Source: Verrucomicrobiota bacterium
Lineage (GTDB): Bacteria; Verrucomicrobiota; Verrucomicrobiia; Chthoniobacterales; Chthoniobacteraceae
DNA: 64,000 nucleotides
Assembly (NCBI GenBank): GCA_009885995.1
Contig: VFJQ01000007.1
Span: 1 to 64,000, forward strand
Direction of reading: 5' to 3'
Positions 38,801 through 44,442 of this stretch are shown in pieces (position 1 is the first letter of the stretch; each line of letters begins with the position of its first letter). The notes beneath the pieces were generated by a model. That model was not told the DNA's origin, made no database searches, and saw nothing but the letters and a program-made list of their open reading frames with translations. Made by a program: the position numbers and the translations under genes.

Positions 38801-39003
38801 ACCTGACGATGCCGCAGATGGATGGCGCGGAGACATTCACCGAACTGCGCCGGATCAAGCCGGAGCTGAAGGTATTGCTGATGAGTGGATTTAACGAGCA
38901 GGACGTGATCAATCGCTTCGCGGGCAAAGGGCTCGCGGGCTTTTTGCAAAAGCCGTTCAAGCCGGACGCGCTGCGCGAGAAGTTGCGCGCGATGCTGGGC
39001 TAG
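35875..39003 (+). CDS. hybrid sensor histidine kinase (CHASE-like, PAS, HisKA, HATPase, REC)
   Basis: A 1042-residue membrane kinase. A membrane helix ([19 protein letters not shown], about 24-42) is followed by an extracytoplasmic CHASE-like domain ([26 protein letters not shown]), a second membrane helix near residue 320 and a coiled coil. Two PAS domains follow, the second ending [14 protein letters not shown]. The kinase core has the phospho-acceptor [15 protein letters not shown], the N box [18 protein letters not shown] and [17 protein letters not shown]-terminal receiver has VVDDEE and the acceptor Asp in [11 protein letters not shown]. No separate response regulator is adjacent, so it may signal to a distant HPt protein. 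The stop codon overlaps the yifB stop (CTAG). Confidence 0.93.
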
Positions 39004-40538
39004 CTCCAGAGGGTGCGGTCGAGAGTGCGATACTGGATGGCTTCGCCGACGTGCTCGGGTGCGATCGCTTCCTTGCCGTCGAGATCCGCGATGGTGCGGG
39101 CGACTTTGAGGATGCGATCGTAGGCGCGGGCGCTGAGGTGTAGTTCGCTCATGGCCATTCGCAGCAAGCCCTCGGCGGCGGAGTCGAGGTCGCAGAATAT
39201 CTTCTGCTGTTTCGGCGTCATGCGCGCATTGCAGCGCACGCGGGTGTTTTCACCGAAACGCCGGCGCTGCACGTCGCGGACGGCGAGGATTCGCTCGCGG
39301 ATCGCTGCGGAGCACTCGCCGGGCTGGCGGCTGGCGAGTTGCTGGAACTCGACGACGGGAACTTCCAGGTGGAGGTCGATGCGGTCGAGGAGCGGGCCGG
39401 AGATGCGGGCGCGGTATTGCTCGACCTGCCGTGGCGAGCAGCGGCACTCACGCTTTGGATCGCCGAAGAAGCCGCAGGGGCACGGGTTCATCGCGGCGAC
39501 GAACATGAAATCCGCTGGGAACATCATCGAGCCGGCGGCGCGTGAGATGGTGACGCGGCCGTCTTCAAGCGGTTGCCGGAGCACTTCGAGAGTGCTGCGT
39601 TTGAACTCCGGCAACTCGTCGAGAAAGAGCACGCCGTTGTGCGCGACGCTGACTTCGCCCGGCGTTGGATTCGTGCCGCCGCCGAGCAAGCCTGCGTCGG
39701 AAATGGTATGATGCGGCGCGCGGAACGGGCGCGTGGCGACAAACGAGTGCGCTGGATCGAGCAGAAGCCCACAGATGCTGTGGATCTTTGTGGTCTCAAT
39801 TGCTTCCTCGAGCGCCATTGGAGGAATGATCGTCGGGATGCGTTTCGCCAACATGGATTTTCCGGAGCCCGGGGGGCCGAGCAGCATCAGGTTATGACCG
39901 CCGGCGACTGCGATCTCAACGGCGCGCTTGGCGTGTTCGTGTCCGCGAACGTCGGCGAAATCGACGTCGTATTGCTGATGTGTGGCGAAAAACTGCGCGA
40001 GGTCTTCACGCGTGGGCGCAAGTTCGCGTTCGCCAGTGAGAAACTCGAACGCTTCGCGCAGGTTTCGCACGCCGTAGACTTCGATCCCCTCGACCATTGC
40101 TGCTTCGCGTGCATTGGCTGCGGGCACGACGACTTTGCGGCGACCTTGCTTGCGTGCCTCGATGGCGATGGGGAGCACGCCGGCGACCGGACGCACCGCA
40201 CCGGTCAAAGCGAGTTCGCCGACAAAGCAGAAATCGCCCACGTTTGGCAGCGCGATCTCCAGCGCGACTGTGATCAAACCCAGCGCGATGGGTAGATCGA
40301 AGCTGGGTCCTTCCTTCTTCACGTTGGCTGGCGCTAGATTGATCGTCATGCGTCCGCGAGCCCAGCGGTAGCCGCTGTTGTCGATAGCGGTGGTGACGCG
40401 ATCCTTGCTTTCTTTCACGGCGGTATCGGGCAAGCCGACGATGACGATCAGCGGATCGCCACGACCACCGTTAACCTCGATTTCGACCTCGAAGGCATCG
40501 ACACCGACGACCGCTGCAGAGAAGATTTGAGCCAGCAT
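39000..40538 (-). CDS. YifB/ComM-family Mg chelatase-like AAA+ ATPase
   Basis: A 512-residue ATPase. The N-terminal domain ([36 protein letters not shown]) is the ChlI-like fold of the family, followed by the AAA+ module with Walker [10 protein letters not shown] and Walker [11 protein letters not shown], and the C-terminal Mg-chelatase region with [16 protein letters not shown] and [14 protein letters not shown]. ComM/YifB proteins act as helicase-like motors in branch migration during natural transformation. The ATG at 40538 ([12 protein letters not shown]) is the typical start. Its stop shares CTAG with the convergent kinase stop. Confidence 0.94.
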
Positions 40539-40984
40539 GAATAGCGAACGCTGACAGACAAAAATGAGCGCTTGAAGTCTGAACACGAGGTTTGCTAAAA
40601 AGATCGTCGTTCTTTTTAGCTGCCGGATGAGTTCAGTTCTACGCGGGAAAATGTTGCTAAGAAAAAAACACCCGGCTCGCTCGTAGAGTGCCCGTATTTA
40701 AGCGAACTTGCCCGACGCAACTTACTCGGGGTTTGAACGGATAATAAGTTAGACTGTCTGAACGGGTAGTTGTTTATTTAACTTGTTCGTTCAGGAAGTG
40801 CATAAAATAAAAGCTCCGACAGATAAAACTTTCTACAAAGTTGCCGATATTTAGGTCGTTGTCATTACAAAGGCAAGACACGCAGATATCGAAGCAGCCT
40901 CTTTTCTAACCAAATCAAAACTTTGACACAAGACACACAAGCACACCAACCGCTGACGTTGGTTTCTTCAGGAGACAAACACAA
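40539..40984. other. AT-rich divergent intergenic region between yifB and rpoD-like gene
   Basis: 446 bases with no coding region I can support, and visibly AT-rich compared with the surrounding high-GC DNA, most so from about 40590 to 40980. It holds the palindrome at 40758-40794, a TTGACA hexamer at 40923-40928 without a clear -10 box at standard spacing, a small hairpin CCAAC/GTTGG at 40947-40963 and an AGGAG ribosome binding sequence about ten bases before the sigma factor ATG at 40985. It probably holds the promoters of yifB and of the sigma factor gene, with a long leader for the latter. Confidence 0.7.
40758..40794. promoter_or_regulatory. 37-base imperfect palindrome upstream of the sigma factor gene
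   Basis: CTGAACG (40758-40764) is matched by CGTTCAG (40788-40794), and inside these arms AGTT pairs with AACT around an AT-rich centre (GTTTATTT). The size and symmetry fit an operator for a dimeric regulator or a cruciform. It lies in the AT-rich divergent region, about 190 bases upstream of the sigma factor start. Confidence 0.5.
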
Positions 40985-41866
40985 ATGACCTATCGTTCTG
41001 GCGAAGACTCTGATTCGGGGATCAAAATCTACCTGCGAGAAATCGGGCAGATTCCACTCCTTACTCCCGAGCAGGAGATTGAATTGGCCGCCAAAATCAA
41101 AAAAGGCGATCAGGAAGCTCGCGCCTTGATGATCCGCTCGAACCTGCGCTTGGTCGTGAAGATCGCGCACGACTACGCCAACCTAGGCCTGCCGCTCCTC
41201 GATTTGATCAGCGAAGGCAACATCGGCCTGATGAAGGCGGTGGAGCGTTTCGATCCGGCCAAGGGGGGTAAGCTCTCGACCTACGCGGCTTGGTGGATCA
41301 AGCAATCGATCAAGCGTGCGCTGGCCAATCAGTCCAAGACGATCCGGCTCCCCGTGCATCTCGTGGACAAAATCTCCAAGATGCGTCGTGTGGCGATGCA
41401 GATGAGCGAAGAACTCGGACGCGAGCCGACGGACGACGAATTGGCCGAGGAAGTCGGGCTGTCAGCGGCAAAAGTTTCGCAATTGAAGACGGTCGCGATT
41501 CGCCCCGCCTCCCTTGATGCACCCATCAGCGATGATGACACGACTGAGTTCGGCGAAATCGTCGGCGATGCGGAAGCTCTCACACCGTTTGAGCGCCTGC
41601 GTGACAAGAACCTCCACGACGAAGTCGGTGATTTGCTTGGCGTGCTCGATGAGCGCGAGAAGAAGATCATTTTCTCCCGCTTCGGGCTCGATGGAGGGAA
41701 GGCCAAGACGCTCGAGGAGGTTGGCAAGAAGTTCGGCGTGACTCGCGAGCGAATCCGCCAACTCCAGAACATCGCCCTGATGAAACTCCGCCGCGCGCTC
41801 CAGAAAAAGGAGAAGCCGATCGAGCACCTCATCCCGACCAACGCGTCATTCCATTTCGACGACTAG
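40985..41866 (+). CDS. RpoD-like sigma-70 family RNA polymerase sigma factor
   Basis: A 293-residue sigma factor without region 1.1. Region 1.2 is IKIYLREIGQIPLLTPEQE; region 2 has NLRLVVKIAHDYANLGLPLLDLI-type core-binding helices and the -10 recognition helix YAAWWIKQSIKRAL; region 3 follows; and region 4 carries the helix-turn-helix TLEEVGKKFGVTRERIRQ for the -35 box. The absence of region 1.1 and the short length suit a group 2 sigma (RpoS/SigA-like) but a minimal primary sigma cannot be excluded, as the window shows no other. A good AGGAG motif precedes the ATG. It is followed by a hairpin terminator and converges with the Mla genes. Confidence 0.94.
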   Translation: MTYRSGEDSDSGIKIYLREIGQIPLLTPEQEIELAAKIKKGDQEARALMIRSNLRLVVKIAHDYANLGLPLLDLISEGNIGLMKAVERFDPAKGGKLSTYAAWWIKQSIKRALANQSKTIRLPVHLVDKISKMRRVAMQMSEELGREPTDDELAEEVGLSAAKVSQLKTVAIRPASLDAPISDDDTTEFGEIVGDAEALTPFERLRDKNLHDEVGDLLGVLDEREKKIIFSRFGLDGGKAKTLEEVGKKFGVTRERIRQLQNIALMKLRRALQKKEKPIEHLIPTNASFHFDD

Positions 41867-41938: not shown

Positions 41939-42892
41939 CTAGCGGCGCTTCGGCGCTGGCGTCGGTGCTGCTGTCTCGCGATCTTTGTAAAAGACGGGAC
42001 CGGAGCGCTTCAGGTTCGCCGCGAAGGACTTCAAATTGGCTGCGGTTTCCTTGTCGGTGAGTAACAAGCCCAGCGCGCCTTCGCCATGTTCCGCCTTTTT
42101 CAAAACGCGCGTCCCGGTGTCCACGAATGAACGCGCGGAATCCATCGTCTTGCCTGCGTTCTCAGCGACTTTCTTGAAGTCCGTCATCGCAGTCCGGAGG
42201 TCTGTAGCGGCCTTGTCCGCAGACTCGAAAGTTTTCTTTGCGGCATCCACGGCGCCGTCGCCTTTGTCCAGAATGACGTCGAGCTTCTTGGTCGATGCGC
42301 TGAGATTCTCGCTCGTCGTCTTTAGGTTGGTGAAGGTGTCGCTGAGGGTCTTGAGGTTCTGATCGTTCAGCAGGTTCTTGTTCAGGTCCGTCGTAAGCTT
42401 CTTCAACTCATCGAGCGTCTCCGTCAGCTTGGTCAAAGTCACCGTTCCCTGCTGCTGGAGCGCACCGAGGCCGGGCTTGGTGCCACCCTGAACCGTCTCG
42501 TTAGGCTTGATGAAGTTTGCGCGGTCGAACTGCGCAGGCGGGACCACATCGATGTAGCAATCGCCGAGGAGCCCCGATTGATCGACCACGATGTTCGAGT
42601 CGCGCGGTAGCAGCACGTCCTCGCGAATCTTGAGCTTCACGCTCACGCCGAAGTTCTCCCGCATGAGCAGCGCCGGGGTGTCTTCCACGTAGCCGATACG
42701 CGCGCCCGCGAGGAGCACTTGTGCGTCCTTCACTAGGCCGCTTGCATTTGGGAACTCGACGGTGACGGAGTAAAAGTCTGTGAAGCCCTTGGCCACGCCG
42801 CCGAAGCGCACGAGCATCGCGGCGATAAATGCCAAGCCGACGGCTAGAAATGTGCCGACGTAGAGTTCGACTCCTTTTCGTTCAGTGCTCAT
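41939..42892 (-). CDS. MCE/MlaD-family phospholipid-transport substrate-binding protein
   Basis: A 317-residue protein anchored by one N-terminal membrane segment (LYVGTFLAVGLAFIAAMLV). An MCE domain (about 38-115; FPNASGLVKDAQVLLAGARIGYV) is followed by a long coiled-coil region (LTETLDELKKLTTDLNKNL and further heptads) and a Pro-rich tail. MCE proteins of Mla-type systems form hexameric rings that pass lipids between membranes. It is the last gene of a permease-ATPase-MCE set, nine bases after the ATPase stop. Confidence 0.92.
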   Translation of the reverse strand: MSTERKGVELYVGTFLAVGLAFIAAMLVRFGGVAKGFTDFYSVTVEFPNASGLVKDAQVLLAGARIGYVEDTPALLMRENFGVSVKLKIREDVLLPRDSNIVVDQSGLLGDCYIDVVPPAQFDRANFIKPNETVQGGTKPGLGALQQQGTVTLTKLTETLDELKKLTTDLNKNLLNDQNLKTLSDTFTNLKTTSENLSASTKKLDVILDKGDGAVDAAKKTFESADKAATDLRTAMTDFKKVAENAGKTMDSARSFVDTGTRVLKKAEHGEGALGLLLTDKETAANLKSFAANLKRSGPVFYKDRETAAPTPAPKRR

Positions 42893-42901
42893 AGATTTGG
42901 T

Positions 42902-43663
42902 TCAGTCGGCGTCACCGGATCGGCCCTCGATGAAATCAGTGATGACCGGATCGGTCGAGGCACGCAGTTGATCGACAGTGCCTTGGAAATACACGCGACC
43001 TTCGTGCAGGAAGACGATCGAGTCACCACAATGAAACGCAGTCTTCATGTCGTGCGTCACGACGACGGAGGTCACGCTGATCCGCTTTTGCAGGCGGCGG
43101 ATGAGGCGGTTGATCGAGTCCGACGTGATAGGGTCAAGCCCCGTCGTCGGTTCGTCATAAAGGATGCACCGCGGCCGACCCACGACGGTGCGGGCCAAGC
43201 CGACGCGCTTCCGCATCCCGCCGGAAAGCTTCTCCGGCATCTTCGACTCGGCGCCGAGCAAGTCCACCATGTCGAGCGCCTCCGTCACTCTCTCCTTGAT
43301 CACCTTGGGATCGCGGATGCCCTGCTCCTTGAGCGGAAAGGCGAGGTTTTGCTCGACCGTCATCGAGTCGAAGAGCGCCGCGCTTTGGAAAAGCATCCCC
43401 ACCTTCCGCCGCACATCGAGCAGTTGGCGCTCGGGAAGGCCGGTGATCTCCTCGCCCTCGATCAACACGCGCCCGCTGGTCGGTCGCATCAGCGCGATGA
43501 TGTGCTTGAGCAGGACGCTCTTTCCGCAACCCGATCGCCCGAGCACCACGCACGTCTCGCCGCGGCGCACTTGCAGGTCCACGCCGCGCAGCACGTCTTG
43601 CGTTCCCAACCGCTTCTTGAGCGCCTGCACTTCGATCACGGGAGTCTCCGGCGAACTGCTCAC
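42902..43663 (-). CDS. Mla-type ABC transporter ATP-binding protein
   Basis: A 253-residue ABC ATPase: Walker A GRSGCGKSV, the Q-loop after MLFQSAALFDSMTVEQN, signature LSGGMRKRVGLAR, Walker B ILYDEPTTGLDP and His-loop VVTHD. It is of the MlaF/Ttg2A type and energises lipid transport. The GTG start shares one base with the permease stop (TAGTG), so translation is coupled. A longer reading without a consensus N-terminus is possible but would overlap the permease gene. Confidence 0.93.
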   Translation of the reverse strand: MSSSPETPVIEVQALKKRLGTQDVLRGVDLQVRRGETCVVLGRSGCGKSVLLKHIIALMRPTSGRVLIEGEEITGLPERQLLDVRRKVGMLFQSAALFDSMTVEQNLAFPLKEQGIRDPKVIKERVTEALDMVDLLGAESKMPEKLSGGMRKRVGLARTVVGRPRCILYDEPTTGLDPITSDSINRLIRRLQKRISVTSVVVTHDMKTAFHCGDSIVFLHEGRVYFQGTVDQLRASTDPVITDFIEGRSGDAD

Positions 43664-44442
43664 TACACGGTGGGGAAGATGATGTTCAGGCCGAAGGAGA
43701 GGAAGAAATTCGAGATCAGGATCGAGAGCGAGCAGCGCACCACCGCCTCGGTCGGCGCCCGGCCGACGCCCACTGCGCCTTCGCGTGCATTCAGGCCCTC
43801 GTAACAGCTCAGGAAGACGATGATGACCCCGAACACGAACCCCTTCGAGAGCGCCCACGCGATATCGTAGCCGTCGGTGTAGCGCCTCATGTTTTCGAGG
43901 AAGAACGCCTCTTGCACGCCGAGCACCTGCGTGGCGACAAACCATCCGGCGATGAGCGAGAATCCTACGCATTCAACGACCAGCAGCGGCATCGAGATCA
44001 TCAGGGCCGTGGCCCGCGGCACCACGAGGTAATCCACCGGCTGCACCCCCAGCGCGCGCAGCGCATCGATCTGCTCCGTCACCTTCATCGTGCCGATCTC
44101 TGCGGCGATCGCAGCGCCCACGCGGCCGGCGACCATCAGCCCCGTCAGCACCGGGCCGAGTTCACGGAACATCGACAGCGACACCACCGGACCGACCGCC
44201 GAGTCCATCCCGAGCTTGTGAAACTGAAAATATGTCTGCGCCGCGAACACTGCGCCGGTGAATGCACCCGTCACCGAAACCACGAGCTGCGAGCGGAAGC
44301 CCATCTCCGCGATCTGGAACATCACCAACCGCCACCGGATCTTGCCGAGAAGAATTGCACCCACCGTATCCCGCATGAGCAGCGCCACCTCGCCGAGGTA
44401 GCTGGCAAAAGAAAGTGCTGAGCGCCCGAGGGTCGTGAGCAT
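43663..44442 (-). CDS. Mla-type ABC transporter permease
   Basis: A 259-residue MlaE-family membrane protein with about five hydrophobic segments. Family motifs are MGFRSQLVVSVTGAFTGAVFA, FRELGPVLTGLMVAGRVGAAIAAEIGTMKVTEQIDAL (central membrane loop) and EGAVGVGRAPTEAVVRC. It forms the inner-membrane channel of the lipid ABC system, with the ATPase and MCE genes directly downstream. No MlaB (STAS) or MlaC (periplasmic carrier) gene is in this window. Confidence 0.93.
   Translation of the reverse strand: MLTTLGRSALSFASYLGEVALLMRDTVGAILLGKIRWRLVMFQIAEMGFRSQLVVSVTGAFTGAVFAAQTYFQFHKLGMDSAVGPVVSLSMFRELGPVLTGLMVAGRVGAAIAAEIGTMKVTEQIDALRALGVQPVDYLVVPRATALMISMPLLVVECVGFSLIAGWFVATQVLGVQEAFFLENMRRYTDGYDIAWALSKGFVFGVIIVFLSCYEGLNAREGAVGVGRAPTEAVVRCSLSILISNFFLSFGLNIIFPTV

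Follow-up and report, generated by a model that had tools for sequence, protein, structure and literature searches.

A predicted ECF sigma promoter in an AT-rich region ahead of a group-2 sigma factor gene of a Verrucomicrobiota bacterium

The 64,000-nt stretch of DNA analyzed here (the window) contains one conspicuous AT-rich island, which separates the divergent genes yifB (minus strand, ATG at 40538) and an RpoD-like sigma factor gene (plus strand, ATG at 40985), and the question it raises is what this region controls, and how. The 446-nt island has a GC content of 43.0%, compared to 65% for the whole window, and only 0.07% of all 446-nt segments reach a value as low or lower. The description of an AT-rich, non-coding region given in the initial annotation was borne out by these values and by the uniqueness of the island in the window (Table 1). 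Open reading frames of at least 20 aa within the island comprise seven of 21–37 aa, a 101-aa antisense frame for which a Pfam search returned no match, and the yifB frame, which may extend into the island by way of an upstream GTG start; these short frames are the only small-gene candidates in the ORF listing of the island. A DNA search of 57 genomes with the island sequence found no match except the island itself, so orthologous genes were used for comparison instead. The divergent yifB is present in only part of the flanks fetched from relatives. On the other side of the sigma gene, and convergent to it, are Mla-like lipid-transport genes (41939–44442, minus strand), where MCE/MlaD-like and ABC-ATPase matches score under the curated cut-offs and a permease-like frame was recognized by eye. 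Because these genes adjoin the sigma gene, they give the neighborhood an envelope theme.

The protein encoded by the sigma gene scores under the curated RpoD and RpoS cut-offs, with RpoS as the second-best NCBIfam match (TIGR02394; 312.6 bits versus a cut-off of 378.7). A second RpoD-like gene, with a 746-aa frame, is found at G000:C172:44411-45109 (G000 being the window's own genome) and presumably encodes the primary sigma factor. Given its regions 1.2 to 4, its scores below both cut-offs, and the presumed primary sigma factor encoded elsewhere, the window's protein was classed as a group-2 sigma factor. The sigma factor of its nearest named relative, Chthoniobacter flavus Ellin428, shares 92% identity, which places the genome near the Chthoniobacteraceae. 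The relative G009 was seen to carry a second group-2 sigma gene copy (G009:C26:146006-146857), 79% identical to the window's gene.

Table 1. Positions of the island, its flanking genes and the sequence elements discussed in the text (window numbering)
Feature	Positions	Strand	Basis or remark
AT-rich intergenic region	40539..40984	none	43% GC versus 65%; sole cluster below 50% GC in the 64-kb window
yifB, YifB-family Mg-chelatase-like AAA ATPase, divergent neighbor	39000..40538	-	TIGR00368, 635.6 bits; cut-off 362.4
Gene for an RpoD-like group-2 sigma factor of 293 aa	40985..41866	+	Profile matches; regions 1.2, 2, 3 and 4
-35 box TTGAAC, predicted ECF-sigma promoter	40733..40738	+	Motif in 34/94 orthologous loci
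-10 box TGTC(TGA)	40755..40761	+	Separated from the -35 box by 16 nt
AGGAG, likely ribosome-binding site of the sigma gene	40970..40974	+	Sequence
Degenerate remnant of second element (possible)	40778..40788	none	TTAAC, then TTGTTC; by eye
Inverted repeat GCTAAAAAGA-N7-TCTTTTTAGC (GCTAAAAAGATCGTCGTTCTTTTTAGC), 27 nt	40594..40620	none	Tighter than the 37-base palindrome
37-base palindrome of the initial annotation	40758..40794	none	Chance-level; shares the final base of TGTC and covers the presumed transcript start

Within the island, the sequence TTGAAC-N16-TGTC (40733–40758) has the layout of an ECF sigma promoter, namely AAC in the -35 box, a -10 box of CGT/TGT type and a spacing of 16–17 nt. 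AAC at -35 together with a CGT-type -10 is typical of ECF sigma recognition (PMC8103513). The motif was first noticed by eye and then emerged when seven upstream regions from close relatives were aligned; aligned sequences show invariant boxes and spacing, with spacer letters that diverge widely among relatives. Its distribution was assessed upstream of orthologous sigma genes in 94 distinct loci, obtained from 107 loci whose upstream sequence was 150 nt or longer by merging identical 150-nt ends and still containing three near-duplicate pairs of more than 90% identity. The strict pattern, TTGAAC-N16/17-TGTC in the 400 nt that precede the sigma gene, occurred in 34 of these loci, part of which had been inspected before this motif, and likewise the TTAAC-N3-GTTAA element considered below, was chosen for counting; shuffled sequences gave a mean of 0.1 and a maximum of 1. 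When the loci were divided by identity of the sigma protein, the strict motif was present in 27/34 at 85.5% or above, 3/36 between 79 and 85.5%, and 4/24 below 79% (7/60 for all loci below 85.5%). A loose form, [TG]GAAC...[TC]GTC at the right spacing, was found in 47/94 loci; the opposite strand gave 3 and shuffles 1.4. At wrong spacings, these boxes were seen 7 times versus 5.45 expected. For two genera within the family, g5 and g6, none of the loci retrieved had the strict motif before the sigma gene (0/3 and 0/9, respectively); three of the nine g6 loci had the loose form. As the relatives share ancestry, these locus counts are not independent, a concern that the divergent spacers and differing gene sets answer only partly.

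The motif was assigned to the sigma gene and not to yifB because it lies on the sigma strand, the strict pattern occurs on the opposite strand in 0/94 upstream regions, and it is kept in L052, L054, L056, L061, L062, and L069, where tblastn detected no yifB in the upstream flank of up to 3 kb. The initial annotation had proposed a complex control region for either the sigma gene or yifB; conservation of an ECF-type promoter motif before the sigma gene in many relatives supports the former, and the strand and yifB data assign the motif to it. Collectively, the island is quite probably the promoter and leader of the group-2 sigma gene, with an ECF promoter that is likely read by an RpoE-like ECF sigma factor. 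Transcription would proceed from TTGAAC-N16-TGTC toward the sigma gene, starting at a predicted position near 40766, and the likely reader is the putative RpoE-like ECF encoded at G000:C51:12261-12890. Judging from relatives, the targets of this ECF appear to include its own gene, often as a yugP-ecf-anti operon, together with htrA/degP proteases and the group-2 sigma gene. The presumed signal is envelope stress, which would free the ECF to raise the production of periplasmic and membrane proteases and of more ECF; by switching on the group-2 sigma factor, it would also carry the response to further, as yet hypothetical, target genes.

The genes that share the motif were identified by scanning eight relatives' genomes with TTGAACN16-17TGTCNNA, which yielded 33 sites versus 8 for the reversed pattern; in G017, scanned with N15-17 as was the window's own genome, there were 11 sites versus 3. 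All but two of the 33 sites (31/33) were read directly, and the sigma site of G009 was assigned by coordinates. Eighteen precede one of three kinds of gene: the sigma gene (5), HtrA/DegP-type proteases (9) or YugP-like zinc proteases (4). Two others are upstream of a lipoprotein-like gene whose SH3 match is below threshold, four fall within the coding sequence of the ECF gene, and the remaining nine lie before other genes or, in one case (G009, C37), went unread. YugP loci were then considered individually, for 30 of 33 matches. Orthologues with 64% identity or more carried the strict motif in 9/12 cases (11/12 with nTGAAC counted), compared to 2/18 for loci below 64%, and the strict motif was present at 6/8 YugP orthologues from previously unscanned genomes. 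In 11 of the 12 loci of at least 64% identity, yugP is followed by the ECF gene and a gene for a candidate anti-sigma factor; the exception, L213, has neither the motif nor an ECF gene in its flank, and the ECF is encoded elsewhere in that genome. The gene order yugP-ecf-one-TM protein was noted in 11 genomes (L205-L212, L214-L216), and this gene set, which includes a membrane zinc protease, may be an operon that senses stress. HtrA loci had the strict motif in 6/9 cases at 52% identity or above and in 7/21 of the rest, two of these being unreadable; as 10 of the 13 HtrA sites were already contained in the genome scans, this count is not an independent test.

The proposed regulator has the domain composition of an ECF sigma factor. 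In the G009 orthologue, Pfam Sigma70_r2 and r4/r4_2 scored over the cut-off and no region 3 or region 1.2 was matched; the protein of the window's own genome was tested by NCBIfam only. The nearest models are of RpoE type, at scores that do not reach their cut-offs (TIGR02939; 127.4 bits for G009 and 141.9 bits for the window's own protein, versus 236.15), and the factor would work like RpoE without being classed as RpoE. In 25/30 family loci, the 1300 nt upstream of the ECF gene contain TTGAAC-N16-TGTC, compared to 0/30 on the opposite strand, a count that leaves out seven further strong orthologues without a locus. Sixteen of these 25 motifs stand directly before the ECF gene and nine are the yugP sites again, and two of the five motif-less loci (G007 and G003) have nTGAAC at yugP. 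ECF genes in genera g5 and g6 mostly retain the motif. A homologous small protein is encoded next to the ECF in all 30 family loci, with one strongly hydrophobic stretch near residues 66–85 in 5/5 examined; it matched no Pfam family. This one-TM protein is a candidate anti-sigma factor and probably the one that acts on the ECF. Other families of the order possess the ECF, with the motif at 1/17 loci, or 4/17 after post hoc loosening. For the Chthoniobacteraceae and their relatives, we propose with moderate confidence that an autoregulated envelope-stress ECF turns on HtrA/YugP proteases and the group-2 RpoD-like sigma factor.

A competing explanation is that the sigma gene is transcribed in a housekeeping manner from sigma-70 sites in its AT-rich leader, with TTGAAC/TGTC being a relic or bound by a factor other than a sigma factor. 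One argument for it is a second conserved element, the palindrome TTAAC-N3-GTTAA. Of the 47 loci that carry the motif, 17 have this element after it, mostly 13–16 nt past TGTC in relatives, compared to a mean of 0.01 in shuffles. By eye, this element overlaps or adjoins what could be a promoter of sigma-70 type, for example TTGTTA-N17-TAAAAC in L039, and similar sigma-70-like sequences occur in relatives of L039; the result is a conserved TTAAC-N3-GTTAA/TTG...TAAA block after the motif. In addition, some orthologues without the ECF motif still have AT-rich leaders. The window itself retains one half only (TTAAC, 40778–40782, 19 nt past TGTC). It was also observed that many of the upstream regions of L036-L058, which are soil MAGs, share a conserved block around TATTTAACCTTGTTAA, approximately 14 nt past the ECF -10 box, and that this block contains TTAAC-N3-GTTAA. 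The element may serve as an operator, or it may belong to a second promoter. As a genome-wide operator, TTAAC-N3-GTTAA was rejected, with 24 sites in 18/40 genomes compared to 74 for the pattern read backward; G009 and G006 have one site each, which according to its coordinates adjoins the sigma gene. A sigma-70 promoter scan of 40400–41100 detected no site, a result of little weight given that shuffles yield just 0.5. ECF and sigma-70 promoters may coexist at the sigma gene. Exclusive housekeeping transcription is nevertheless considered unlikely, because it would hardly explain the strict spacing of the two boxes, the protease genes that share them or the pattern of ECF autoregulation.

Marginally less probable is an ECF promoter whose reader is an ECF other than the yugP-linked one, and here the window's own genome provides the relevant data. 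Its yugP-type ECF gene is followed by a gene for a one-transmembrane protein and has no motif within 1300 nt upstream. The one YugP gene examined, of two, is without the motif, as are three of the four HtrA loci; the fourth (L255) has TTGAAC-N16-TGTT before the ATG, with one mismatch. Exact matches are hardly enriched in this genome (4 sites versus 2 for the control, N15-17). One of the four is the coding site within the ECF gene, and a second intergenic site (L112) precedes a gene for a predicted secreted protein. As only 1 of 20 loci orthologous to L112 carries the motif, the L112 site is probably due to chance, and the same orthologues serve as a control showing that the motif is not generic. 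The main-class HtrA copy of this genome (L243; G000:C5:29356-30682) has its matches split over two frames, reflecting either a frameshift or an assembly error, and a tRNA-Leu gene lies just upstream of it.

Lack of the motif at the genome's own ECF gene leaves room for another reader, as does the finding that the ECF region-4 family has 36 matches in this genome, some of which are not ECF genes. Because of that lack, the function of the ECF in the window's genome is one that we infer. Examination of 30 of the 36 loci, however, revealed the loose motif before the gene in none; L139 has a loose match that falls inside a reading frame, and five of the ECF-family loci, truncated where a contig ends, may be misplaced. 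The yugP-type ECF, moreover, is the factor whose gene is preceded by the motif in most loci of the family, as described above. The genome's own ECF and its G009 orthologue are identical over SEGTVRSRLFYAHRQLQ, a stretch which we take to include the recognition helix. The yugP-linked, RpoE-like ECF is thus retained as the likely reader.

Two further interpretations concern the island as a structure and not as a promoter. A structured RNA leader, such as a riboswitch or thermosensor, is conceivable in view of a leader of ~220 nt if transcription starts near 40766, but it is very unlikely, as the presumed leader has a fold z-score of 0.13 and no Rfam match was obtained in the island up to an E value of 1. 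The initial annotation had drawn attention to a 37-base palindrome. Its arms (CTGAACG, 40758–40764, and CGTTCAG, 40788–40794) and the 37-nt span do exist. The symmetry does not exceed chance: within the span, in-register pairing is seen at 9 of 18 positions, 500 of 500 dinucleotide shuffles of the island contain a 37-nt span with symmetry at least as high, and 57% of island shuffles produce 7-nt arms separated by no more than 30 nt. By eye, the inner AGTT/AACT pair is off register by one base, lying 3 nt from the left arm and 4 nt from the right. The initial annotation had named conservation beside rpoD-like genes in relatives as the check and its lack as a refutation, and the palindrome was found in 1 of the 94 upstream regions, which is the window's own. 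The 37-base palindrome is a chance occurrence, and a role as an operator, nucleoid-protein site or replication site, for which the existence of the arms is the one argument, is highly improbable given the chance-level symmetry and its absence from 93/94 regions. The tighter inverted repeat in the island (Table 1) sits 56–82 nt upstream of yifB, and arms of 10 nt or more appear in just 1.6% of shuffles. It was likewise found in 1/94 upstream regions (the window's own), with a looser form in one relative, L005. A terminator scan found none (shuffles yield 0.9) and did not call this repeat a terminator.

The closest parallel to the proposed circuit is RpoE of Escherichia coli, which was found through rpoH P3 and has htrA/degP as its second known target (PMC8103513). 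Shared features are an autoregulated ECF, promoters of AAC...GTC type, and control of HtrA/DegP and of a second sigma gene (PMC8103513). The systems differ in that the second sigma factor is an RpoD-like group-2 protein here and RpoH in E. coli, the -35 box is TTGAAC here and GGAACTT in E. coli, yugP is often part of the operon here, and the ECF remains under the RpoE equivalog cut-off. ECF41 promoters, as described in PMC3426412, are bipartite, with a spacer of 16 ± 1 bp and a -10 of CGTC, TGTT, or TGTC, and often precede a two-gene operon that includes the ECF. This layout is the same as that of TTGAAC-N16-TGTC; the ECF41 -35, in contrast, is TGTCACA, and ECF41 proteins have a C-terminal extension and are paired with COE genes, not yugP. 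The window's sigma factor resembles RpoS-like group-2 factors in its RpoD-like regions 1.2–4 and has no Pfam region 1.1 match, although it scores below the RpoS cut-off. EcfG, of the general stress response in Alphaproteobacteria, also uses promoters with AAC at -35, and EcfG promoters have a 16–17 nt spacing. Their -10 is CGTT (PMC8103513), whereas it is TGTC here. PDZ proteins in Chlamydiae and Verrucomicrobia have been counted (PMC6411480) and one ECF41 protein has been reported in Verrucomicrobia (PMC3426412), and the available portions of these two papers do not mention this circuit. Among open-access titles and abstract openings, no Verrucomicrobia envelope-stress regulon or circuit of this kind was found.

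Verrucomicrobia are a common soil phylum, and Chthoniobacter flavus is a cultured species in which the motif and operon constitute a directly testable regulon with named targets. The conserved promoter, as predicted from these genomes, suggests activation of one stress regulator by another. If this is true, the circuit would be a counterpart of the RpoE-to-RpoH wiring with a different class of second sigma factor, and placing a further sigma gene under a cell-envelope ECF would be a recurring design.
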